Shown here one piece after another: positions 170 to 22,548 of a stretch of DNA of 23,417 nt. How positions within the stretch are numbered: the stretch's first letter is position 1; each line of letters starts with the position of its first letter. The stretch covers positions 1-23,417 of the IMG/VR virus record IMGVR_UViG_3300044951_000251; one strand, written 5' to 3'. Position numbers and translations under genes: made by a program. Source of the stretch: a virus. Below the pieces are notes generated by a model that ran no database searches, had not been told where the DNA came from, and was given only the letters and a program-made list of their open reading frames with translations.

Positions 170-1330
170 ATGCAAAACACAGAACAACTTATTGCTCAAG
201 GCAATACCTACAGAGAACAACACCTGCCTGAACAGGCACTGCAACAGTACGCAACAGCAATGGCCACGGACAGAGGCTCATCGGGTGCGTTCAACAACTA
301 CGGCAATGTGTTAAGAGAGATAGGCGATCCTGTGGGTGCTGTTCCGTTTTTACAACGTGCCATTCAACTTGATCCAGCCAATGTAACACATCATTTTAAT
401 TTGTCAGTGGCTTACTTACTCAGTGGTGACTATGTACGTGGCTGGCCTGCCTATGAAGCACGGCATAATTTTGAACATTTAAAAGGTACAATTCCCAACT
501 ATCCTTGGCCTGTGTGGAACGGTGAAGATTTAACAGGTAAAACAATTTTTATTCGTGGCGAACAAGGCCACGGTGATATTATTCAGTTTGTGAGATTCAT
601 ACAGAACTTAAAAAACATTGGTGGCACAGTCACAGTGCAAGTGACCAACGGATTGATTCCGTTGATACAATCCAGTGAAATTGGCCGTGGAGTTCGGGTG
701 ATTGGTTATGCCGAAAATCCAGGTGATGTATTTGATTACTGGCTTCCCATAATGAGCTTGCCCGGCAAGTTAAACGTTCGTGTAGACAACTTGCCCACTG
801 TGATTCAATATCTAAATCCTGACCCTGCATTGGTTGCAGACTGGCGCAGGAATTTAGGTGTAAAGAATCGTCTACGAGTGGGCTTTGCCTGGTCAGGCCG
901 ACGTGACAGTTGGATCAATCAGCACAAGGCCATGCCGTTTGCGACCATGTTGAGCTTGATTCAATCACATGCAGATTACGAATGGTATAATTTACAAACT
1001 GACTGTACTACTGAGGAAGAAAAAGAACTAGTCTCAGCAGGAGTACGCTGTTTTCCAGGTGGTGTGAACTCGTTTGCTGACACTGCCGCATTGGTTACAA
1101 ATCTTGATGTGGTGGTGAGTGTGGACACTGCCACTGCACATCTTGCTGCCGCATTAGGCAAGCCCACTTGGATCATGCTGAACAACTATGCACCTTGCTG
1201 GCGCTGGCTGTTAAACAGAGACGACACGCCGTGGTATGCCACTGCAAGATTGTTCCGTCAACCCCAAATAGGTGACTGGGACACAGTGGTTGAACGAATC
1301 AAGTTACACTTGAAATTGTTTAAGATTTAA
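170..1330 (+). CDS. TPR protein with glycosyltransferase (GT9/OGT-like) C-terminal domain
   Basis: A 386-residue protein. Residues ~1-100 carry tetratricopeptide repeats (pattern NYGNVLREIGDPVGAVPFLQ followed by AIQLDP). A linker contains GEQGHGDIIQF, matching the GEQGLGD-type motif of bacterial TPR-linked glycosyltransferase-like proteins. The C-terminus has VSVDTATAHLAAALGKPTW and a WRWLLNRDD...PWY segment typical of the same family. Such proteins are thought to bind nucleotide sugars. In a phage, a role in decorating virion proteins or the host surface is possible, but that is inference. The gene stands alone on the plus strand beside the head module. A late-promoter-like motif sits directly before its ATG and no clear RBS is present. 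The family assignment is good; the substrate is unknown. Confidence 0.8.
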   Translation: MQNTEQLIAQGNTYREQHLPEQALQQYATAMATDRGSSGAFNNYGNVLREIGDPVGAVPFLQRAIQLDPANVTHHFNLSVAYLLSGDYVRGWPAYEARHNFEHLKGTIPNYPWPVWNGEDLTGKTIFIRGEQGHGDIIQFVRFIQNLKNIGGTVTVQVTNGLIPLIQSSEIGRGVRVIGYAENPGDVFDYWLPIMSLPGKLNVRVDNLPTVIQYLNPDPALVADWRRNLGVKNRLRVGFAWSGRRDSWINQHKAMPFATMLSLIQSHADYEWYNLQTDCTTEEEKELVSAGVRCFPGGVNSFADTAALVTNLDVVVSVDTATAHLAAALGKPTWIMLNNYAPCWRWLLNRDDTPWYATARLFRQPQIGDWDTVVERIKLHLKLFKI

Positions 1331-12908: not shown

Positions 12909-12916
12909 CACATTCA

Positions 12917-12936
12917 AGAACTTCTAACGAAGTTCT
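12917..12936. repeat. Perfect 8-bp hairpin after the rightward operon
   Basis: AGAACTTC and GAAGTTCT flank a TAAC loop, immediately before the terminator hairpin. It probably stabilises the 3' end of the rightward mRNA. Confidence 0.7.
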
Positions 12937-12967
12937 ATTGACTCGCTTTGCTCGTCAATGTTTTTTT
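12937..12967 (+). terminator. Intrinsic terminator of the rightward operon
   Basis: Stem ATTGAC/GTCAAT (12937-12942 and 12954-12959) around a TCGCTTTGCTC interior, followed by G and seven T (12961-12967). Placed 28 nt past the last rightward stop. Confidence 0.75.
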
Positions 12968-13016
12968 AATTCTTGAGCGAAGCGATTTAAGCTATTATCT
13001 AGATTACGTGGTCATA

Positions 13017-13038
13017 GTTCACCGTATGCACGGTGAAC
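13017..13038. repeat. Perfect 9-bp hairpin GTTCACCGT-ATGC-ACGGTGAAC
   Basis: Perfect inverted repeat with an ATGC loop. On the minus strand it comes directly after the U-tract of the leftward terminator; on the plus strand it is followed by six A. It is therefore not itself a simple terminator in either direction. Confidence 0.7.
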
Positions 13039-13064
13039 AAAAAACGCCATTATCTGAGTATAGC
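13039..13064 (-). terminator. Probable intrinsic terminator of the leftward operon
   Basis: The minus strand forms GCTAT...ATGGC (13064-13046), then a G and six U (13044-13039). The stem is short (5 bp with one G-U pair), so strength is uncertain. It would end transcripts coming through the GIY-YIG gene and the structured stretch. Confidence 0.5.
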
Positions 13065-13330
13065 AGTCATCTATCGTAATGAGATTGTAGTTTCCTACGC
13101 GGAGGCGGTTGACCGGTACCCCCTACTCAAGCTTCACATATCAACGGAACCCTAGTAACCCGATATAGATCCAAGTCCTATGAGCTGGGGTTGTATCTTT
13201 TTCACATATCCCCGACCATTTGTTGCCTTAAGTTAGCAATTGCCTTTGACGTCCAAGTCTGAATTGGGTATCTCACCAATCCTCAATGGAGTTGAGCCAC
13301 ATCGCCCAACACAGTGTCGTAATCGTTGCC
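13065..13330 (-). ncRNA. Structured-looking non-coding stretch between convergent operons (candidate RNA)
   Basis: These 266 nt hold no credible gene. Minus-strand RNA can form several helices: TTGGG...CCCAA enclosing CTCAA-CTCCA-TTGAG; a long-range ACCCC/GGGGT plus CTCA/TGAG stem enclosing about 50 nt; and GTAG-GAAA-CTAC, a 4-bp stem capped by a GNRA tetraloop. It is followed by the terminator at 13064-13039. Two short motifs repeat: TTCACATATC (13201 and, with one-base offset context, 13133) and CCAAGTC (13172 and 13252), read on the plus strand. It lies directly downstream of the GIY-YIG nuclease. I could not match it to tRNA, tmRNA, RNase P or a group I/II core. It may be a structured 3' UTR, a novel RNA or a decayed element. 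Confidence 0.35.
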
Positions 13331-13759
13331 TTACAGTTTGTTTATTATATGAGAGCCATGCACACGCACTTGTATGTGGCCGTTGTAATAATCTCGTGAT
13401 TCCAATACTTGTCTTGCGAATTGTTCTCTTGCCTCAATGTAACTACATTCTGACTTTGAGTTGCAATAGTAAAGTATTTCTCTAGTGAAGTTTTCGGTGC
13501 CTAGTTTTTCGATGTCTGAAGTCAATTCTGGGCTTGACCCATAGTACTCTCTCCAGTCTGAGTCGACCTTTGATCGTATCTTTTTCTTCTTCTTTGTGCC
13601 GTTCTTTTGTTTTACAGTTTTGTAAGTTGTTTTGCTAAATTTTGCTAATTTTTTGCCTATGTACTTGCGACCAGTGAGATTATTTGTAATCAAGTAAACA
13701 AATCCAACACACTCTTCGGGCAACGTCTCGATTGGGGTATCTTGATATAACCATGTCAT
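13331..13759 (-). CDS. GIY-YIG homing-type endonuclease
   Basis: A 142-residue protein from the ATG at 13759. A TTG-started frame reaches 13807, but the ATG start gives MTWLYQDTPIETLPEECVGF, which matches the usual N-terminus of this phage family. The GIY-YIG core is FVYLITNNLTGRKYIGKK, followed by a Lys-rich insert and WREYYGSS, the segment with the conserved Arg/Tyr. It lies last in the leftward operon, 31 nt after the radical SAM-SDR stop, and is followed by a structured non-coding stretch. The family is common in T4-like phages as free-standing mobile nucleases; a homing site is not visible. No convincing RBS (AGGA lies 17 nt upstream). Confidence 0.85.
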   Translation of the reverse strand: MTWLYQDTPIETLPEECVGFVYLITNNLTGRKYIGKKLAKFSKTTYKTVKQKNGTKKKKKIRSKVDSDWREYYGSSPELTSDIEKLGTENFTREILYYCNSKSECSYIEAREQFARQVLESRDYYNGHIQVRVHGSHIINKL

Positions 13760-13790
13760 GTGTTGTATGCGATTTATCCTTGCTGTATAG

Positions 13791-15497
13791 TTATGCCTTA
13801 TGATCAAAGTTTACGTAAAAAGTTGCCTCTTCTATCACAGTATTTGAACTGACTGCGGTAGCGTATTGTATAAAGTTGCTGATGTCGTTTAAATTAACGC
13901 CGTTGCCAGTCCAATTGGGCCGGCTACGACTAAGTTCTGTATCTAGTCTATCTAATGTAATAAGTATTGTTTTAAATGGTACAATGTTTTGTTTAAATGC
14001 CTGTGTGCCTTGACGACTTGCGTGTTCTAATGCTGCCTTGCTAATTCTATATGTTTCAAAACGAGGCTCGGGAGCAACAATACTTTTGCTGCCTGTGCTG
14101 CCAATGTTAATGATATGCCCAGTTTTTCTTGCTGTTTTCCATGCATCGTACACAGCCATGTATATTTGTGATTGTGCAAAGTTAGCCCAGTCTTCTTGTG
14201 GTGGACCGTCGAATGCATTGTTAACAAACACATCAAAGTCTAAACTTATTTCTGCAATTTCTTTGGCATGTTTGGTAATGTCGTAACCTTGCGTACGGCT
14301 AATACTAGTTCCACCAAAGGTCTGTACCAACTGTAGCCCCAGGCCACGATTACCACCAGTGATTAAGAATGTTTTGTTCATTTTTGTTTGATCCCATACC
14401 TTTTGAAACTGCTTGCCGCAGGTTAGTGCGCATTCAAACAGTCGCTCAGGAAATGTATTATACTTCCAACTGTTCACAAGGTCTACCCAAAAAGAGTTAG
14501 TAAACACCTGTTCCAGTGAACGATGATGTATGTTTAAGTTGTCAGCACCGTGGCGGTTGACAAATTCTTGTACTTGATTCTCTCCATCCACTGTGCTTAA
14601 ATCATTACTACACGGCAGCACAGATTGATCACGGAACCTAGCGTCACTAAGATTGTGATTTAACATATTGCACGGCAACACAAGTCCTGCGGCATTAATA
14701 GCAACTTTGTTGCCTTTTAGTGAGTCACAACAAATTTCTGTGTTGGCAAAGTATTCTTTAATATTTGGGTATTGTTTTTTTAAATCTGGCAGTATATTAA
14801 TGCTTTTGTTTTTGTATTGCGGTAGAGCAGTGGGTTTTATAACATACTCTGTTTGTCCTTGCCGATTTTGTACAGGCCACTCTGAAAATTCTTCCATGGT
14901 GTTGTGGTTTAAGAATCTACCAGTGGCACGATATTTAAAATCTCGAAAGCCTAGACTGACACTTAACTTTTGTGCCTGATTGACTTGATGTTGATTATGT
15001 TCAAATATAATGTAGTTCCATACTGCACGGCCGCCTGCGGTAATGTATGCAGTGGCATTGCTGATAATCTTGTCAAAGTCAGTGTTGCGTCTATACAAGT
15101 GGTTGGTATCAGCAAGACCGTCAATGTTAAAATCTATTTGCCCGAAGCCACCGATAATCTTGGCCATCTCGGTCCAGTATTCTGTATCGTGTGCGCTACC
15201 ATTGGTGTGTATGTATAACCAAAGTGTAGGACACTTGCGTCTAAAGTCACGCAAGATATCCAGGAATTCTGGATGCATAATAGGATCACCGTAACTGCCA
15301 CAGAAGAACACTTGTCTTAATCGATTGCATAGTTCTTCAGTAAACGCACGGTCTATTACCTGCCTAGGAAGGTGTTCAAGTTTAAGATATGGGTTAAGCA
15401 CACCACCATTGACGTTGCGAGGACATTGCGGACACGCGGCATTGCAGTAAGTGGTTACTTCAATCTGGTACTCGTCAATAACATTAAAATCGAACAT
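13791..15497 (-). CDS. Radical SAM enzyme fused to a short-chain dehydrogenase/reductase
   Basis: A 568-residue two-domain protein. Residues 1-~365 are a radical SAM domain: CNAACPQC at 18-25 gives the three [4Fe-4S]-binding Cys (18, 22, 25), FCGSYGDP follows, and later Cys residues (ICCDS, LPCNM, CALTC) suggest a SPASM-like auxiliary cluster region. Residues 373-568 are a complete SDR: TGGNRGLG nucleotide-binding loop (380-387), VNNA (425-428), INIGSTGS and the catalytic YRISK (Tyr483, Lys487). An internal ATG at the SDR start (14381) has no good RBS, so a true fusion is more likely than two genes. It starts 3 nt after the previous stop. The pairing suggests a radical modification followed by oxidation or reduction of the same substrate; the substrate is unknown. 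Confidence 0.88.
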   Translation of the reverse strand: MFDFNVIDEYQIEVTTYCNAACPQCPRNVNGGVLNPYLKLEHLPRQVIDRAFTEELCNRLRQVFFCGSYGDPIMHPEFLDILRDFRRKCPTLWLYIHTNGSAHDTEYWTEMAKIIGGFGQIDFNIDGLADTNHLYRRNTDFDKIISNATAYITAGGRAVWNYIIFEHNQHQVNQAQKLSVSLGFRDFKYRATGRFLNHNTMEEFSEWPVQNRQGQTEYVIKPTALPQYKNKSINILPDLKKQYPNIKEYFANTEICCDSLKGNKVAINAAGLVLPCNMLNHNLSDARFRDQSVLPCSNDLSTVDGENQVQEFVNRHGADNLNIHHRSLEQVFTNSFWVDLVNSWKYNTFPERLFECALTCGKQFQKVWDQTKMNKTFLITGGNRGLGLQLVQTFGGTSISRTQGYDITKHAKEIAEISLDFDVFVNNAFDGPPQEDWANFAQSQIYMAVYDAWKTARKTGHIINIGSTGSKSIVAPEPRFETYRISKAALEHASRQGTQAFKQNIVPFKTILITLDRLDTELSRSRPNWTGNGVNLNDISNFIQYATAVSSNTVIEEATFYVNFDHKA

Positions 15498-15500
15498 TTT

Positions 15501-16046
15501 TTAAATCTCAGGTAAATCTTTGAAAAAATTTTTAGCTTCTTGCAACACAGATGCACTAGTTTTAAAAATAGTATTATCCAGACTTAGCCTATCTTTTTTG
15601 CGGCATTCAATAATCCAATCAATGAAAGGGTAGAAAAATGTATACCGCCATGTGCCGTTGTGCCCTAGATATAAATTAGGGGCTATGTACGAAGGTAATT
15701 CTTGACCAGAATCTACCATATCTGAAATGTAGGACAGACCATATACTGGCCAAAATTGACCAATCTGTAACTCAGTGTCAGTCAGTCGTACCTGGTCGAT
15801 TGTGATAGACTTGATGTAAACATATTTGTCCACAGCAATTGACCCATCAGGATTGTAAAGATGATCAGTGTCTGTTTTGCCAAAGTGTACAATTTTAAGT
15901 TCGTGTTCGCTGTAGCCAATATCAAATTCACGATTAAATTGTGGTATTGCCGGACCTTCGTACAAGATTATATAATCATCTATTAGAATTTTAATTAAAG
16001 GAGTGCCCAACTGGTCACCAATTTCAAAATCAATTATTAAGTGCAT
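15501..16046 (-). CDS. Hypothetical beta-rich protein in the radical SAM cluster
   Basis: A 181-residue protein with no recognised family. The first ~110 residues alternate hydrophobic and polar residues (IKILIDDYIILYEG; HELKIVHFGKTDTDH; KYVYIKSITIDQVRL), as in a beta-sandwich, reminiscent of carbohydrate-binding modules. The C-terminal third has Trp/Tyr-rich WRYTFFYPFIDWII and a helix. No signal peptide. Its ATG overlaps the B12 radical SAM stop by one base (TAATG), and the radical SAM-SDR gene follows after 3 nt, so the three are very likely made together. It could be a binding partner or substrate carrier; this is speculation. Confidence 0.7.
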   Translation of the reverse strand: MHLIIDFEIGDQLGTPLIKILIDDYIILYEGPAIPQFNREFDIGYSEHELKIVHFGKTDTDHLYNPDGSIAVDKYVYIKSITIDQVRLTDTELQIGQFWPVYGLSYISDMVDSGQELPSYIAPNLYLGHNGTWRYTFFYPFIDWIIECRKKDRLSLDNTIFKTSASVLQEAKNFFKDLPEI

Positions 16047-17545
16047 TAATGAATCACTCCTGCTAATCGGTCAAGGCGACTTTTATAGTTGTCCATTAAC
16101 ACTTTGAGTTGGTCGTCACCTTTCCAGAAAGTATACCCTAACTTAACTGCTACTTCTTGTGCTTCAATTCTACGATGAATGCGCTCTTTGTAACTAAGTG
16201 TAGGATTATCCAAACATTTCCAATCAGGTCCCTCGGGTCTATTTCCATTAACTCCTACTATGTTAAGTAATGGATACTCTGACCAAATTGGAGTACCTTC
16301 TTCGATTGTCAAGGTAGTTCCTAAGTTTACACCTATAATGGTACCATCAGCAACATATGGCTGATATTTACGCAACATGTCAAGTGTTTGGTCAAAGTCC
16401 TCTCGAGTTTCTGTGGGAAAACCAACAATAATAAGAAAATAAGCATTAACTCCATGCTTACTAAACATCTTCATAGTAAAGTCTAAATCAATGTTAGTGA
16501 ACCCTTTTCTCATATGTTCTTTTACACGGTCGCTTCCTGATTCAACGCCAATGACCATACATTCGGCTCCACCTCTTCCCATTAATTCATAGTCTCGCTC
16601 CTGCATCATCTGCTCACTGCGAACAATGTAGTGGCTACTATATTTGAAATAGCGATCGGGAAGATTATGTTTTTCGTAATATTCAATAAGTTTACGATTG
16701 AATATTCTAAAATCTTTGACACTTCCGTTACATAAAGCATCATGAAAGAAAAAGTCACGAACTCCGTACTTTTCATAGTAGTGTACTAGTTCGTTAAACA
16801 ACCGTTCACCTGTTTTATACCTATATCCTCCGTGCATAGTAGGAATATCGCAAAACATACAGTTGCGAACACACCCGCGACTGGTTTCCATTGGTAGCAC
16901 ACCATTTTCATATCCGCTGTAATATTTTTTAATATCAAAGTCGTCAAAGTTCATAAACTCGTGGGCGTTGACGTCACTCCTCTCAGCAAAGTTATCTGAA
17001 TCAATCCCTAGTGCATCAAACTTGCCTGATATTAATGAATCTATAGTGGTTTCAACTTCGCCTCTTACCCAATGGGCAATTAATCCTTTTTGTTTTAGTT
17101 CGTATGCAAACTCGGGTCGATCAGCGTAACTTCCATTTTCGCAACGAACTAACCCTTGACCGCCGATAACAACTGGAATGTCTGTGTGTTGTTTCCAAAG
17201 AGATAAAAAATCTCTAGTAAATCTTTGCGCCTGCCAGGTAAACACACTAACCATTAGCCAATTAGGATTATACTTTTTAATTCTGTAAACCCACTCGGTC
17301 ATCCAATCAGTGTATAACCTCAGTTCATCTTGATCTAAATTAATCTGATAATTAAAAAAGTAATCATCAAGTTTCCAAAATAATTTTTCTCCATGTAATT
17401 TTCTAAAGTTACTATGAAAATCTAAATTAATATCTAATATTTTAGAATCAAGGCCACGCTTCTGCAATAAAGATTTTATGATACTTGGCGCCGCCGCTGG
17501 TCGCAATGCGGCAATTCTTGGAACAGATAAAATAATTGCAAACAT
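16046..17545 (-). CDS. B12-binding-type radical SAM enzyme
   Basis: A 499-residue protein with class B (cobalamin-type) radical SAM architecture. Residues 1-~180 are a Rossmann-like B12-binding-type domain (SVPRIAALRPAAAPSIIKSL; PVVIGGQGLV; HWVRGEVETTI). The radical SAM domain follows with TSRGCVRNCMFC (Cys225, 229, 232), FFFHDALCNG, the Glu/Ser-rich VIGVESGSDRV and IVGFPTETREDF, all typical of the family. Such enzymes perform methylations or other radical chemistry; the substrate cannot be read from sequence. Starts 2 nt after gp46 and overlaps the next gene by 1 nt. This gene and its neighbours look more A+T-rich than gp46 and gp47. Confidence 0.88.
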   Translation of the reverse strand: MFAIILSVPRIAALRPAAAPSIIKSLLQKRGLDSKILDINLDFHSNFRKLHGEKLFWKLDDYFFNYQINLDQDELRLYTDWMTEWVYRIKKYNPNWLMVSVFTWQAQRFTRDFLSLWKQHTDIPVVIGGQGLVRCENGSYADRPEFAYELKQKGLIAHWVRGEVETTIDSLISGKFDALGIDSDNFAERSDVNAHEFMNFDDFDIKKYYSGYENGVLPMETSRGCVRNCMFCDIPTMHGGYRYKTGERLFNELVHYYEKYGVRDFFFHDALCNGSVKDFRIFNRKLIEYYEKHNLPDRYFKYSSHYIVRSEQMMQERDYELMGRGGAECMVIGVESGSDRVKEHMRKGFTNIDLDFTMKMFSKHGVNAYFLIIVGFPTETREDFDQTLDMLRKYQPYVADGTIIGVNLGTTLTIEEGTPIWSEYPLLNIVGVNGNRPEGPDWKCLDNPTLSYKERIHRRIEAQEVAVKLGYTFWKGDDQLKVLMDNYKSRLDRLAGVIH

Positions 17546-17547
17546 GA

Positions 17548-19629
17548 TTACGCTAGTTCTATATCCGTATTATAACTGGTGAAGCCATTCTCTTTGATTA
17601 CTTTGAGAATGTTCTCTACACGACCAGCAAGTTCGTCTCTATGACTAACAAGCCATATACTCTTATGGCGTTCACGACTCATCTTCTTTAGCAGAGCCAG
17701 GGCATTTTCCACACCCTGTGTGTCTAGTCCGTTGTCAATCAATTCGTCAATGAACAACAAGTTGATTGGGCTGTACAAACTTTCCCATACGTCACGGAAT
17801 GCCCATGACATTGATAGGATAAGTCGATTGCGTTCTCCGCGACTCAAGTTATCAAAGTCTAGTTCACGACCTAGTTCTTCAATCATCACACTCAGATCGT
17901 TTTGAAACTTCACAGTGTGTGGCAAGCCAATACGATCCAAATAGTGTGTAAGGCGTGCATTCAAATAACTCAAGTTTTGATCAATGATCTTCTTGCGTAC
18001 AAAACTATCTTTTGATGTCAACAGTTTGAGCAAGAAGTCTTGATGTTCTTGTAATCTTGTGAGATCATTGAGTGCATCGTAGCTGACAGTTTGCAGGGCT
18101 TGTTGTTGCATTTCTGTAATCTGTTCTGTGTACGGATCCCGTTCCTCGCCTTTGGTAGCAATCTGTGTCAGCAGGGTGTTCATACGACTACGATGATCAA
18201 CTGCCTGTGCTTCTGTATCGTAATGTGTAACAGGCTGTGTGCCAACTTCTACAGGTGTGTGCTCTGCCAGTTGTTCAGCATAGGGATCTGTTTCTGCACG
18301 TTTGGCATCAATCTTGTGTTGAATGTTTTCCAACTCACTGGAATGTCGAATAGCTTCTGTTTCTGTTCGATAGTGTGTGGTAGGTTTTGCACCCAGCACA
18401 CCTAATGCAGTCAATGCATCTGTATTTTCCATCCATTGACCATTAGTACTCAACGCCTGCAGTGCAGACTCTTGTAGGGCTTTCTCTTTTGTTGCCAACA
18501 CTGTTTCGTGATTGGCGTCATGGAAGTCTTGTCCGCAAGCATAACACTTGTGATTTTTTAGTTCTTCAATTTCGGTTTTGAGTTTATCAATGACTTTTTG
18601 TTCTCGAGCTTCGTCGGCAACACACCTGGCAATCAGTTTCTCAAGGTCAGTAATGTCTTTAGATCGTTGTGTGTAAGCAGCCAAGTCTACATGTGCTTGT
18701 AGTTCAGCTGTGATATCAATATGGCTGAGATTGTTGTAAGTTAGTTCCAACTCGCTGATATCTTTTTGTTGTTTTTGTTTCCAAGCAGTTTGTCGACCAA
18801 CTAGAGCGGTATACGCATCTTGTTGTTGTTTCCTTGTGGTCCACACAGCTAGATCTTTGTGAGCCAGCAGTTCTACTTCGATGTCAATCTTGGCTAGGTC
18901 ATCATACTGTGCCACAAGGTACGCCACATCACTATCGTATTTCTTTTGCCAAAGCACTTGCCTGCGTTTCAAACTTTCGATCTGTTCTTCAATGCGCTTG
19001 TTGGCTTCTTGTTCGGCACGGATACGGAATTCTTCTTGTGAAATGCTGTCTTTGGTCTGCCGGTTGAGTTCTTTGATAGCGTCTGCACGTTCGCTCAGCA
19101 AGGTGATACCCAACAACTGCTCAATGATGTTGCGTTGGTCGTTGGCTTTTAAACTCAAGAACGGTTCGGTATAAGTGTTCAGTGCCAACACATGTTTGAA
19201 CATGTCATGACTCATATTCATCACACGTTCAATTGCATCTTGTGTTTCGCGGCTATCGCCTTGTGCTTCGTCAGTAGACACTTGTGCTTCGTTGTTGACA
19301 TAGAATCGTAGCACGTTGGGTTTGCGTCCACGTTCAATTTTGTACTCTTGACCCCCAATGACAAAGTCCAGGCTCACCAGCATGTTCTTACCGTTGGTTT
19401 TGTTAACAAGATTGTCTTTACGTATATTACTTAAGGCCTGCCCGTACAATGCATAACTTAAGGCATTAATGATAGTAGTTTTACCTGTACCGTTGCGTGA
19501 CCCGTCACCGCCTAAGTCAAGATTCTCGCCCAGGACCAGTGTAAGGTCGTTGCGATCAAAGTCAATACCTTGCGTGGCATTGCCCACGCTCATAAAGTTT
19601 TTGACAGTGAGATTTTTAATTTGAATCAA
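17548..19629 (-). CDS. 46: Recombination nuclease subunit gp46 (Rad50/SbcC-like ATPase)
   Basis: A 693-residue SMC/Rad50-type ATPase that works with gp47 in resecting DNA ends, recombination-dependent replication and host DNA degradation. Walker A is GDGSRNGTGKTT (41-52); the zinc hook is CYACGQ (362-367) between coiled-coil arms; the signature motif is LSRGERNR (595-602); Walker B is LLFIDELIDNGLD (624-636); the switch His is in VSHRDE. Both arms hold tandem repeats: residues ~242-263 recur at ~298-319, and ~416-456 at ~466-506. The start is TTG at 19629 with GGAG 6 nt upstream, inside the end of the previous gene (14-nt overlap). In most T4-likes gp47 directly precedes gp46; here two genes intervene. 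Confidence 0.95.
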   Translation of the reverse strand: MIQIKNLTVKNFMSVGNATQGIDFDRNDLTLVLGENLDLGGDGSRNGTGKTTIINALSYALYGQALSNIRKDNLVNKTNGKNMLVSLDFVIGGQEYKIERGRKPNVLRFYVNNEAQVSTDEAQGDSRETQDAIERVMNMSHDMFKHVLALNTYTEPFLSLKANDQRNIIEQLLGITLLSERADAIKELNRQTKDSISQEEFRIRAEQEANKRIEEQIESLKRRQVLWQKKYDSDVAYLVAQYDDLAKIDIEVELLAHKDLAVWTTRKQQQDAYTALVGRQTAWKQKQQKDISELELTYNNLSHIDITAELQAHVDLAAYTQRSKDITDLEKLIARCVADEAREQKVIDKLKTEIEELKNHKCYACGQDFHDANHETVLATKEKALQESALQALSTNGQWMENTDALTALGVLGAKPTTHYRTETEAIRHSSELENIQHKIDAKRAETDPYAEQLAEHTPVEVGTQPVTHYDTEAQAVDHRSRMNTLLTQIATKGEERDPYTEQITEMQQQALQTVSYDALNDLTRLQEHQDFLLKLLTSKDSFVRKKIIDQNLSYLNARLTHYLDRIGLPHTVKFQNDLSVMIEELGRELDFDNLSRGERNRLILSMSWAFRDVWESLYSPINLLFIDELIDNGLDTQGVENALALLKKMSRERHKSIWLVSHRDELAGRVENILKVIKENGFTSYNTDIELA

Positions 19630-20470
19630 TATCTACTCCGTGTTCTTTTAACATTTTAACAATATCAGCAGTGTTTGTAAACCAGTTAGAATAATCATTG
19701 TGCGGAACTTCAATGTTGTACTTTACCCAGATGTAATAGTATACCACTGCTTGAGTCCAAATATCTGTAATATGTGTTAGATCTGTGCGGTTGTTAGTTG
19801 TTGCTAGAGACAACACATTCTTTGCAGTTATCACAGGATCGATATATTTAGAATTTGCCAGGCGCCACTCTTTCCAAATACTATAAAAATCATCTGTTTT
19901 TGCAATAGCATTTATTACAGCATGACATTCCTTGTAATCCTGGTATAATTCGGCTATATCTAACTCAGTGTCAAGTAGCGTATGTTTGTTCCGTGACTTC
20001 CAGACATGCCGGAGTGGATGATCTCGCAAATACAAAAAGTATTTTTCACGTTGTGCCCAGGGCTCGTCAGATTCCCATTGATCAACCGGTAGTTGTTGTT
20101 GAAGGGTGCTTTGCATGCCTTTTTCAATCATGGTTCGGGCAACCACTGGCCAACTGTGATTAGAATAACAAATTTTAATCACAGTTGCATTGGCAAATGT
20201 GTTTTTAAAATTCTCAGATTCGTTGTTGATTCCGTTATCAATTAGCACACAATAGTTTTGATTGTTGACAAACTCAATGCCACCAGGCCAGCATTCGTGA
20301 AGATATTTAGGCACAATTAAATCCAAACTGTGACTATCACCAGTTGATGAAAAATCCAAAGATTTTTTAGGGCGGACAAAATTATCACCGTGTAAAGTTA
20401 GTATAGCATTGACAAAGTGACCAAACCCACCACTTGGATACCACACACAATAAATATTAGAAGTAGTCAA
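19616..20470 (-). CDS. Hypothetical protein between amidinotransferase and gp46
   Basis: A 284-residue protein of unknown family. I chose TTG at 20470: AGAAGG lies 8 nt upstream, whereas the more upstream TTG at 20491 has no RBS and overlaps the amidinotransferase more. The N-terminus then reads TTSNIYCVWYPSGGFGHFVN; the YPSGGFGH segment resembles the substrate loop of some sulfotransferase- or glycosyltransferase-like proteins, but the P-loop Lys of sulfotransferases is absent. The rest is helical and rich in Trp/Tyr. No membrane segment. It overlaps both neighbours by 14 nt, the same distance at each end. Likely acts with the amidinotransferase; function unknown. Confidence 0.72.
   Translation of the reverse strand: MTTSNIYCVWYPSGGFGHFVNAILTLHGDNFVRPKKSLDFSSTGDSHSLDLIVPKYLHECWPGGIEFVNNQNYCVLIDNGINNESENFKNTFANATVIKICYSNHSWPVVARTMIEKGMQSTLQQQLPVDQWESDEPWAQREKYFLYLRDHPLRHVWKSRNKHTLLDTELDIAELYQDYKECHAVINAIAKTDDFYSIWKEWRLANSKYIDPVITAKNVLSLATTNNRTDLTHITDIWTQAVVYYYIWVKYNIEVPHNDYSNWFTNTADIVKMLKEHGVDIDSN
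19636..19639 (-). promoter_or_regulatory. RBS deciding the TTG start of gp46
   Basis: GGAG lies 6 nt before the TTG at 19629, inside the preceding gene. The TTG start keeps the conserved IQIKNLTVKNF beginning of the ATPase domain. Confidence 0.65.
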
Positions 20471-21509
20471 TGCAATCACCTTCTCGCACAATGTCTAGGG
20501 TCGCGCAGTGTAGACCACAATCCCAAAAAAATCTATGTCTGAATGGAACGATATGTGGGGTAATTCCATGTCTTTCCAGAGCCAAAATAATAGCAGGATT
20601 ATGGCTATTGATGATAGCATTCTGTTGATTGATCATAAAAAGATTAACATCAAATTGTGTTTCCATTGAATATCCTACCCAGGAATTAAACTTGGTGCTG
20701 ACCAAATCAATCAATGCTGGATCTAATTCTTGATTTTTGATCCACCATTGTCCTTGAGTTGCTCTTAGAGATCTCAGTGCCTGATCATTGTCAGTATGTG
20801 AATGCCAGGGCACCTGTATAACCTCCCACCCGGGAAAACTATCTTTATACGTCAACGGATTCATATAAGTTACAATCAACCCAGGAACAACAGGAGAAAA
20901 CACTGCATCACTGTGTCCCCCGCAATCCACATAGTGGATTTTATATTTGTTAAAATAATTCGGTATAATTTTAGATTGTAATAATTTAAAATAGTCTTTT
21001 TTGTGATATGTGGGATCATGACTATAAAAATCAAAAAACAAATCTTTACCTACCCTGGTAATACAAGGTGGTGCCACTTTCTTCCACACGTCTTCATCTT
21101 TTCGATGATCTAATAACTGTGTCGGGTTCACCGAATCAATAAAACTATTCCAAGGATCAACATAGCCGTCTCCAAACCCGTTGTGTATGGCATGAAGAGT
21201 TTGGCCAATAACAATCATATCATCTCTTGGTTGCATCGGGGGTCGCTTATAAATTTCTTGGCCGGTATCAGCAGTGTACAAATACATTCCATAGTTGGAT
21301 GAAATTTCTGGCCGTATAACTTTTACGTTAAACTTTTGTAAAACTGATATTAATTTCTGGTAGTCTTCTTCTGTTTCTATAGAAATCCGTTCAAAGATAG
21401 ATCTTAATCGTGCATCTTGAATAAAACTAAAAAAATCAGGCGGATAACATTGACCTACCAGGCAAGTTTGCAGCGGTTGAAATCCGCTATTACTATTGGG
21501 ACTGATCAT
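20457..21509 (-). CDS. Amidinotransferase (guanidino-group-modifying superfamily)
   Basis: A 350-residue member of the arginine:glycine amidinotransferase/deiminase superfamily. Candidate catalytic residues are all present: Asp/His pair in CGGHSDAVFSP (His199, Asp201) and the nucleophilic Cys335 in GLHCATLDIVREG, the canonical C-terminal motif. N-terminal SGFQPLQTCLVG matches the 'EWdpL...VG' strand of the fold. These enzymes move an amidino group from arginine to an amine, or hydrolyse guanidino groups. Its start overlaps the gp47 stop (ATGA), and it is coupled to the next gene. In a phage it might modify a metabolite, a polyamine or a modified base; this is open. It appears more A+T-rich than gp47, suggesting later acquisition. 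Confidence 0.88.
   Translation of the reverse strand: MISPNSNSGFQPLQTCLVGQCYPPDFFSFIQDARLRSIFERISIETEEDYQKLISVLQKFNVKVIRPEISSNYGMYLYTADTGQEIYKRPPMQPRDDMIVIGQTLHAIHNGFGDGYVDPWNSFIDSVNPTQLLDHRKDEDVWKKVAPPCITRVGKDLFFDFYSHDPTYHKKDYFKLLQSKIIPNYFNKYKIHYVDCGGHSDAVFSPVVPGLIVTYMNPLTYKDSFPGWEVIQVPWHSHTDNDQALRSLRATQGQWWIKNQELDPALIDLVSTKFNSWVGYSMETQFDVNLFMINQQNAIINSHNPAIILALERHGITPHIVPFRHRFFWDCGLHCATLDIVREGDCIDYF
20479..20485 (-). promoter_or_regulatory. RBS deciding the TTG start at 20470
   Basis: The minus strand reads GAGAAGG, 8 nt before TTG, within the last codons of the amidinotransferase gene. Confidence 0.6.
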
Positions 21510-22522
21510 AGTGTCTGATATATTTTTAACAACAGTTTTGGATCATAGAATTCAGATTCAATGTTTGTAAGCTGGTCTGTGACAATTTGATCTACTGATT
21601 CAAACTTGACTTCACCAGGCGCCATGTCTGTGTCAACGCCGGCATTTTTATTTGGGATAAGAGCCATTTCTCTCAGTCCATAGTCTTTAATATAAGTTTC
21701 TTTGATGAAATTGGCTTCTTCGTATGAGATTTCAATGTCTAGTTGTACGCGAACGTGCATGTCTTTGGCTAACAGTGTGGCAGCATTGTCGATAACTGAG
21801 CTCAGTCCCAGCACACGATAGCGTGGCTGTGCAGGCCAAGCGTGATACACAGGTTCCTGTCCCCACTCTAACACTGTCATGCCACGTTCGTCGTCTCCGG
21901 CGTCGGCATAGTTGTGCGGAAAGCAATTGCCAATGTAGGTGATGTTTTTCTTGGTTTGACGTTTGTGGAAGTGTCCGGTAAACACATGTTCAAAGTTGTT
22001 AAAGTCTTCTCTGCGGATCTCACCATGGTCTGGCATCTCTACCATGGCATTCATCAAGTAGCCCGGCAGTTCAAAGTGCCCAAACATGTACTTGCCCTTT
22101 AGTTTGGGTATCCTCTTATGATCGTCGCCACACAGCCAAGGAGCAATGATGACATTGCCATCACTAAACCAATCGTTGCATATTTCAATGTTTGGCAAGT
22201 GTTTGGCCCATTCTACACTTTGTATATCACGCTTATCGCGATAATACAAGTCATGATTACCAGGGATGAAAAGCACACGATCAAAATTGTTGTTCATGTG
22301 CTCCAGAGCTTGTAGACTGTAGTTGAGTGTGACAATGTTCAGGCTGGATCGGTTGTTGTGCCAATCGCCTAGAAACAAACAGGTGTCACATCCTTCTGCT
22401 CGGGCTTTGGCAGTGGCCCACTTGACAAAAGCCAAACAGTCTTCGTTGTGCAACGTGCTGTTTGACTTTAAGCCAAAGTGTATGTCAGTGAATATTGCGG
22501 CTTTTTTAAATAGATTGGACAT
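21506..22522 (-). CDS. 47: Recombination nuclease subunit gp47 (Mre11/SbcD-like)
   Basis: A 338-residue calcineurin-like phosphoesterase, partner of gp46. All metal-binding motifs are present in order: DIHFG (13-17), GDWHN (52-56), GNHD (88-91), FGHFE and GHFHKR. Length matches T4 gp47 (339). I chose the ATG at 22522, giving MSNLFKKAAIFTDIHFG; a TTG 21 nt upstream is in frame but lacks an RBS and lies at the predicted transcript start. It follows gp55 after a 70-bp gap with a sigma70-like promoter, and overlaps the amidinotransferase start by 4 nt. Confidence 0.95.
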   Translation of the reverse strand: MSNLFKKAAIFTDIHFGLKSNSTLHNEDCLAFVKWATAKARAEGCDTCLFLGDWHNNRSSLNIVTLNYSLQALEHMNNNFDRVLFIPGNHDLYYRDKRDIQSVEWAKHLPNIEICNDWFSDGNVIIAPWLCGDDHKRIPKLKGKYMFGHFELPGYLMNAMVEMPDHGEIRREDFNNFEHVFTGHFHKRQTKKNITYIGNCFPHNYADAGDDERGMTVLEWGQEPVYHAWPAQPRYRVLGLSSVIDNAATLLAKDMHVRVQLDIEISYEEANFIKETYIKDYGLREMALIPNKNAGVDTDMAPGEVKFESVDQIVTDQLTNIESEFYDPKLLLKIYQTL

Positions 22523-22548
22523 AGTTATATAAGGTAATACCAAATATT

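Follow-up and report, generated by a model that had tools for sequence, protein, structure and literature searches.

Two exchangeable cargo slots around gp46 of an uncultured T4-like phage carry radical SAM modules that may tailor glycan sugars

The stretch of DNA analysed here (the window) comprises the 23,417 nucleotides of the virus record IMGVR_UViG_3300044951_000251, in which gp47, gp46, the sigma factor gp55, the baseplate hub and the portal are T4-like phage genes. Five accessory genes are threaded through its recombination operon, all on the minus strand, giving the leftward order gp47, amidinotransferase, a 284/291-residue protein, gp46, a B12-type radical S-adenosylmethionine (SAM) enzyme, a beta-rich protein, a fusion of a twitch radical SAM enzyme with a short-chain dehydrogenase/reductase (SDR), and g158. 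This region consists of two real modules, namely the B12 radical SAM enzyme with the beta protein (module A) and the twitch radical SAM enzyme with the SDR (module B), and of two independent riders, the amidinotransferase and the 284/291-residue protein. With somewhat more confidence than doubt, we favour the view that this cargo tailors the sugars of surface or virion glycans, over the modification of a base, a polyamine or a peptide. The nearest named relative of the portal, found in PA5oct-like Pseudomonas phages, is only ~50% identical, and the lineage is therefore essentially uncultured.

In relatives, gp47, gp46 and g158 are constant anchors with variable genes between them, in slot 1 (gp47|gp46) and slot 2 (gp46|g158), and g158 comes after slot 2 in nearly all of them. 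Loci were gathered by collection scans seeded with short peptides, which mostly yield close relatives, and 72 were reached through the B12 radical SAM enzyme, 54 through the fusion, 79 through the amidinotransferase and five through the 284/291-residue protein. Since co-occurrence counts from the radical SAM- and B12-seeded scans are biased toward the searched genes, a scan from gp47, which favours no cargo, was added as a correction and reached 80 loci; cargo was called with hidden Markov models (HMMs) from the same families, so that remote versions are missed. Among the 59 distinct slots reached from gp47, the radical SAM-SDR pair was complete in 11-12, the beta protein was present in eight and the B12 radical SAM enzyme in six, always with the beta protein (6/6, Fisher p=6e-7), while the 291-residue family occurred in 11 and the amidinotransferase in one, the window itself. 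The B12 enzyme was also associated with the radical SAM-SDR pair (5/6, Fisher p=5e-4), whereas the 291-residue family was associated neither with the B12 enzyme (p=0.31) nor with the radical SAM-SDR pair (p=0.33) in these slots. Many slots were empty, with g158 directly after gp46, and others held SGNH-like, sulfotransferase-like, SDR, twitch radical SAM and methyltransferase-like genes in many combinations. The slot model is supported by this variation, in which constant anchors enclose no cargo at all, part of it or a different set. The complete set of five was seen only in L002 and L003, contigs 100% identical to the window, and the nearest independent approach, one 130.7-kb record (L157/L307), reads gp47, amidinotransferase, 291-residue protein, two other genes, gp46, another gene, B12 radical SAM, radical SAM and g158, with no recognisable beta protein or SDR. 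The five-gene set that a first-pass annotation had proposed, to be judged by its co-occurrence elsewhere, is therefore not upheld as a unit, while the two modules within it stand, the radical SAM and SDR being adjacent in 43/43 slots.

Module A begins 2 nt after gp46 with the cobalamin-type, class B methylase-like radical SAM gene (16046-17545), which overlaps the gene of the 181-residue beta protein (15501-16046) by 1 nt. The enzyme matches Pfam Radical_SAM (1.8e-17), its CX3CX2C motif (C225/C229/C232) is invariant in 33 sequences, and its N-terminal region of ~200 residues is of a size that fits a cobalamin domain. Its NCBIfam matches, all below the curated cut-offs, include the PhpK P-methyltransferase (9e-27) and a RiPP (ribosomally synthesised and post-translationally modified peptide) C-methyltransferase (7e-23), and its profile matches include OxsB and AprD4. 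It thus has the motif, the right-sized N-terminal region and the superfamily in common with GenK/GenD1, PhpK and OxsB, but scores below all of their family cut-offs. To our knowledge, a constant beta-sandwich partner has not been described for any of these enzymes. The beta protein has no Pfam, NCBIfam or PHROG family match, and no CBM family model recognises its sequence. Its AlphaFold 2 (AF2) model is confident (pLDDT 88.7), and of 350,542 solved chains the two that match it best are CBM60 entries (2xhh, 2xfd; probability 1.00, TM-score on the target 0.66-0.71, E 0.02); the fold recurs in three uncharacterised proteins of Caudovirales at E<1e-6. CBM60 modules are calcium-dependent carbohydrate-binding modules. 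While CBM60/CBM36 is the nearest solved fold, the beta protein is only ~10% identical to these modules, has extra C-terminal helices, which form a helical tail, and stands free beside a radical SAM enzyme instead of being fused to a glycoside hydrolase.

The two proteins of module A diverge together, their pairwise identities correlating at a Spearman rho of 0.95 over 35 loci. Duplicated beta proteins were seen in L086, L088-L090, L092, L100, L107 and L138-L144, each beside its own second enzyme, which is a second B12 radical SAM enzyme in L086, L100 and L107 and an aminotransferase-like protein in L138-L144, where that protein, with its own beta protein, takes the place of the radical SAM-SDR pair. 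We take this protein to be a pyridoxal phosphate-dependent aminotransferase from a recognised SLSKTF motif; Pfam gives no match to it. The beta protein seems to partner slot-2 enzymes in general. In L307 (186-605), a beta-rich open reading frame (ORF) of 139 residues that the beta HMM does not match lies directly before the B12 enzyme, and is possibly a very diverged beta partner.

Module B follows after a gap of 3 nt (13791-15497), with the twitch radical SAM enzyme in residues 1-370 and the SDR in residues 372-568; Pfam recognises Radical_SAM (2.7e-9) and, just below the cut-off, adh_short (1.5e-5, 25.0 bits vs 26.6). In the radical SAM half, C18/C22/C25, C257-x13-G271-x4-C276, C356 and C360 are all invariant in alignment A5, and the CX13GX4C ... 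CX3C layout of the four additional cysteines is that of one predicted auxiliary cluster, as in twitch enzymes. The SDR half carries the complete classical short-chain dehydrogenase signature (TGxxxGxG, NNA, Ser-Tyr-xxx-Lys), with TGGNRGLG at 380, NNAF at 426, S467, Y483 and K487, and the Ser, Tyr and Lys are present in 82/82 sequences. Most relatives encode the two as separate genes (~369+194 residues), the fusion (568-600 residues) being confined to part of them. BtrN is a twitch enzyme whose auxiliary cluster is held by four cysteines and which oxidises an aminocyclitol (PMC9012708), and aminoglycoside pathways use C-methylation by GenK/GenD1 and deoxygenation by AprD4/AprD3 (PMC5461906). 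Module B resembles BtrN, the radical SAM dehydrogenase of butirosin, in its four-cysteine auxiliary site and AprD4/AprD3, a radical SAM diol dehydratase with an NADPH reductase, in placing a radical SAM enzyme beside an NAD(P)-type reductase, and by this analogy it is plausibly a pair that would oxidise or dehydrate and then reduce a sugar or cyclitol. It differs from these systems in having no close sequence kinship with them, in the fusion of the SDR in the window, and in its occurrence in phages and Bdellovibrio-order bacteria. Profile A2 of module B had no PDB match at E<=0.001 and rSAM_AprD4 was not among the NCBIfam matches of P0001, so that membership of the AprD4 sequence family is not indicated and the comparison is limited to its presumed logic.

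Homologues of module B lie among sugar genes. In the sugar cluster of T4-like phages (L196-L198, L203, L204) the radical SAM-SDR pair is found among a GT8-type glycosyltransferase, FkbM methyltransferases, NAD epimerases and a GDP-mannose 4,6-dehydratase. Bacteriovoracales-order chromosomes carry the radical SAM enzyme with an SDR of the same family at three loci (L206/L319, L326, L327); the genome scan, for which alignment A5 was used because A2 was too gappy, gave one clear homologue locus of the pair (L206). Other bacterial copies of the radical SAM enzyme adjoin genes that we take, reading their sequences by eye, to be GT2 and PMT-like glycosyltransferases, a UDP-galactopyranose-mutase-like protein and twitch radical SAM enzymes. 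Cyanobacterial radical SAM proteins of 527 residues (L212-L226) were rejected as evidence for the pair, only the radical SAM half being in common.

In slot 1, the amidinotransferase (20457-21509) overlaps gp47 by 4 nt, and its profile matches 2jdx/1jdw (E 5e-21 to 2e-20) as well as SxtG, HsvA and StrB (1bwd). Its catalytic residues PRD94-96, D156, H199, D201 and C335 are invariant or at least 90% conserved in 24 phage relatives, and a homologue in cyanophage S-SCSM2R is annotated as glycine amidinotransferase. By the catalytic Cys with His/Asp it belongs to the GATM/StrB/SxtG family; the phage branch shares the fold family and all catalytic residues with L-Arg:Gly amidinotransferase, StrB, SxtG and HsvA, but is shorter. 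In genomes of related phages, a recurrent cluster combines its paralogues with an epimerase, a DegT/StrS aminotransferase, a carbamoyltransferase and twitch radical SAM enzymes. Such a large cluster, with several of the latter enzymes, was seen in L308, L310, L314, L315 and L317, where it also encodes proteins of 340-1070 residues without a Pfam match. On the plus strand of the window (170-1330) lies another glycan-type gene, for a tetratricopeptide repeat (TPR) protein of 386 residues with a GT9/heptosyltransferase-like C-terminus (NCBIfam, sub-threshold), a relative of which adjoins an amidinotransferase in L009. The second rider (19616-20470) overlaps the amidinotransferase gene by 14 nt and gp46 by another 14 nt; its longest ORF starts at TTG 20491, while the alignment of relatives (A6) favours a TTG near 20470, and thus 284 residues. 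It has no Pfam match, and a YPSGGxG loop is invariant in A6. Its AF2 model is of moderate quality (pLDDT 79), and its best Foldseek matches are mostly sulfotransferases (Teg14, SULT7A1, HS6OST), all weak (E at least 0.028, probability at most 0.77), which makes it a probable sulfotransferase-like P-loop enzyme at the level of the model. Neither this protein nor the beta protein had a match among 50,697 named phage records.

The cargo is exchanged between phages. In the 35 loci, identities of gp46 and gp47 correlate at 0.80, whereas those of the B12 enzyme correlate at only 0.24 with the radical SAM enzyme, 0.06 with the SDR and 0.23 with gp46; for the beta protein and the B12 enzyme together, the range is 0.06-0.24 against the radical SAM enzyme and SDR and 0.23-0.29 against gp46. 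Four relatives (L156, L159, L165, L183) have gp46 93-96% and g158 86-100% identical to the window but a B12 enzyme only 40-47% identical, and the closest B12 enzyme (81%) and beta protein (77%) sit in a phage with a far more diverged gp46 (L083), next to a radical SAM enzyme of 53% identity. In another record (L091/L190, IMGVR_UViG_3300040810_000230) the whole cassette of B12 enzyme, beta protein, radical SAM and SDR lies outside the gp46 locus, and in the cupin ORF before it the final ~60 nt match the gp46 3' end of L089/L092 without a difference; judging from this match, the cassette took a fragment of gp46 along when it moved out of that locus. We read the surrounding genes as QueD-like, curli-type and CHASE2-like from their sequences. 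Curli genes are present in pelagimyophages and in the OM43 phage Melnitz (PMC7029224, PMC9004378). The five accessory genes are indeed more A+T-rich than the other window genes, as first noticed by inspection (mean GC 0.377 vs 0.434, Mann-Whitney p=0.001; third-position GC 0.330 vs 0.400, p=0.002), although the core genes g215, g366 and g253 have a third-position GC nearly as low. The B12 enzyme gene also lies below gp46 in GC in 26/34 relatives, so that low GC marks cargo genes in general and not one event. The identity correlations and the single amidinotransferase among the gp47-reached slots do not bear out the earlier suggestion that the five genes were acquired together.

We favour glycan tailoring because of the CBM60-like fold predicted for the beta protein, the radical SAM-SDR pairs in sugar clusters, the glycosyltransferases beside bacterial homologues, the amidinotransferase paralogues in aminosugar-type clusters, the aminotransferase-like proteins that stand in for the radical SAM-SDR pair and the aminoglycoside precedents, and from these we infer substrate, reactions and benefit as follows. 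Cargo would be exchanged through the conserved borders gp47|gp46 and gp46|g158, probably by homologous recombination within them, and its target would be the surface polysaccharide of the infected cell or a virion-associated glycan. The beta protein may dock module A on the glycan, where the B12 enzyme would carry out a radical C-alkylation, probably a methylation, of a sugar carbon; the twitch enzyme would oxidise or dehydrate a sugar hydroxyl and the SDR would reduce the resulting ketone, following a BtrN/AprD4-AprD3-like logic. The amidinotransferase might guanidinylate an amino sugar and the 284/291-residue protein might sulfate that sugar, and the altered surface could exclude competing phages or shift receptor use. 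Here we further speculate, as a tentative extension to which we give a distinctly lower probability, that a cobalamin radical SAM enzyme dependent on a free-standing CBM60-like docking protein forms a two-component radical glycan editor, an interchangeable module of T4-like phages that would rewrite carbons of the host's surface polysaccharide in the course of infection, and that successive modules (twitch radical SAM/SDR, aminotransferase, amidinotransferase) would produce a phage-specific sugar signature.

Several observations weigh against glycan tailoring. Neither slot holds a glycosyltransferase, the one TPR/GT9-like gene of the window lying at its far end. Peptides, lipids, tRNA and nucleotides are further substrates of B12-type radical SAM enzymes, and RiPP methylases are among the best NCBIfam matches of the present one. 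Its cobalamin domain is weakly recognised (Pfam B12-binding, E 0.0037, below the cut-off, residues 85-131), and the CBM60 match of the beta protein, at E 0.02, is without sequence support. The radical SAM enzyme and the SDR co-diverge modestly (rho 0.35) despite their constant adjacency, which may reflect recombination between them.

The cargo could instead be independent, the slots gathering beneficial small enzymes without a common pathway, so that only the two modules would be functional units, each with its own target. This would account for the many combinations in the slots and for an amidinotransferase and a 291-residue protein unassociated with the remaining genes; the association of the B12 enzyme with the radical SAM-SDR pair beyond chance, and slot contents of one kind, tailoring enzymes, rather than a random assortment, make it a rather unlikely explanation in our view. 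A RiPP-like peptide or protein modification, with the beta protein as the substrate of the radical SAM enzymes, would explain why this protein constantly adjoins the B12 enzyme and co-diverges with it as a dedicated substrate should, why duplicated beta proteins come with duplicated enzymes, and the RiPP maturases among the NCBIfam neighbours. We nevertheless consider it improbable, as the beta protein is a well-folded domain of ~180 residues nearest to CBM60 that lacks a leader/core layout, genes for a protease or a transporter are absent from the neighbourhood, the twitch enzyme carries a single motif for an auxiliary cluster, and homologues of module B occur in sugar-gene contexts.

Nothing points to the modified base or the polyamine that had been offered as examples of a product, the context pointing to sugars. 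For small-molecule metabolism, such as guanidinoacetate or polyamine supply or a cofactor or Fe-S economy, it can be said that the amidinotransferase profile is closest to L-Arg:Gly amidinotransferase and that environmental T4-like genomes, with as many as 12 radical SAM genes, have been linked to Fe-S genes (PMC5332604). However, SxtG, HsvA and StrB, which have other acceptors, are nearly as close, the amidinotransferase paralogues sit with aminosugar-type genes and the cassette neither makes nor uses polyamines, leaving this explanation with little probability. Least probable of all is a protection of the phage DNA by a modified base or another product made from a nucleotide: the genes do lie within a DNA-metabolism operon and the profile matches include OxsB, a B12 radical SAM enzyme with a nucleotide substrate, but the slots of the window hold no thymidylate-synthase-like, kinase, 7-deazaguanine or DNA glycosyltransferase gene, homologues sit in sugar clusters, and the cargo is missing from close relatives whose recombination genes are the same, which is unexpected for a base present in all DNA. 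Of the pathway proposed by the first-pass annotation, real enzymes, a multi-gene unit and the surface glycan option thus remain, while a single five-gene pathway does not.

Radical SAM genes are known from related phages, 12 of them in one T4-like ocean genome (PMC5332604) and as gene cassettes in pelagimyophages (PMC7029224). These cassettes, and the lipopolysaccharide-modification genes of marine T4-like phages, for which modification of the host O-chain is the proposed role, belong like the present cargo to aquatic T4-like phages and lie in variable regions. The pelagimyophage cassettes, however, lie in a host recognition cluster and were not analysed gene by gene, whereas here slots around gp46, resolved modules, a CBM60-like partner and exchange were found. 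The pairing of a B12 radical SAM enzyme with a CBM60-like protein and the gp46-anchored slot-swapping appear to be new, being undescribed in the open-access literature we found, which does not prove novelty. The known cases of phage surface conversion mostly involve glycosyltransferases and acetyltransferases. If our reading is true, radical reactions on sugars, either finished or linked to a nucleotide, would offer a different route to receptor change, at carbons beyond ordinary transferases, and slot-swapping would show phages shuffling such chemistries between near-identical genomes. The B12 enzyme and beta protein, as a compact co-evolving unit, would make a defined target for enzymology.

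The arrangement of five leftward, tightly coupled genes around gp46, with overlaps of 1-14 nt and gaps of 2-3 nt, was borne out, and the operon is one gene longer than first described, as g158 (13331-13807), a small GIY-YIG/group-I-intron-endonuclease-like gene (NCBIfam TIGR01453, E 4e-4, below the cut-off) that serves as the constant outer anchor of slot 2, has a 17-nt overlap with the fusion. The outer anchor of slot 1 is the SbcD-like gp47 (21506-22543, with an ATG start at ~22522; PHROG 100, E 1.7e-63), and the SbcC/Rad50-like gp46 (17548-19629; PHROG 77, E 6e-103) is the core anchor that separates both slots. Promoter and terminator scans gave matches no more numerous than in shuffled sequence, and transcription as an operon is therefore deduced from the gene overlaps alone. 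No tRNA was found near the operon. Between the convergent operons, ~420 nt (12909-13330) contain short inverted repeats visible by eye and have neither an assigned gene nor an Rfam match. The sole structured RNA matched by Rfam is far off, a freshwater-2 RNA (RF02980) on the minus strand at 23-110 (68.3 bits vs a gathering score of 49.9), which points out of the left end of the window, so that the gene it would regulate lies outside.

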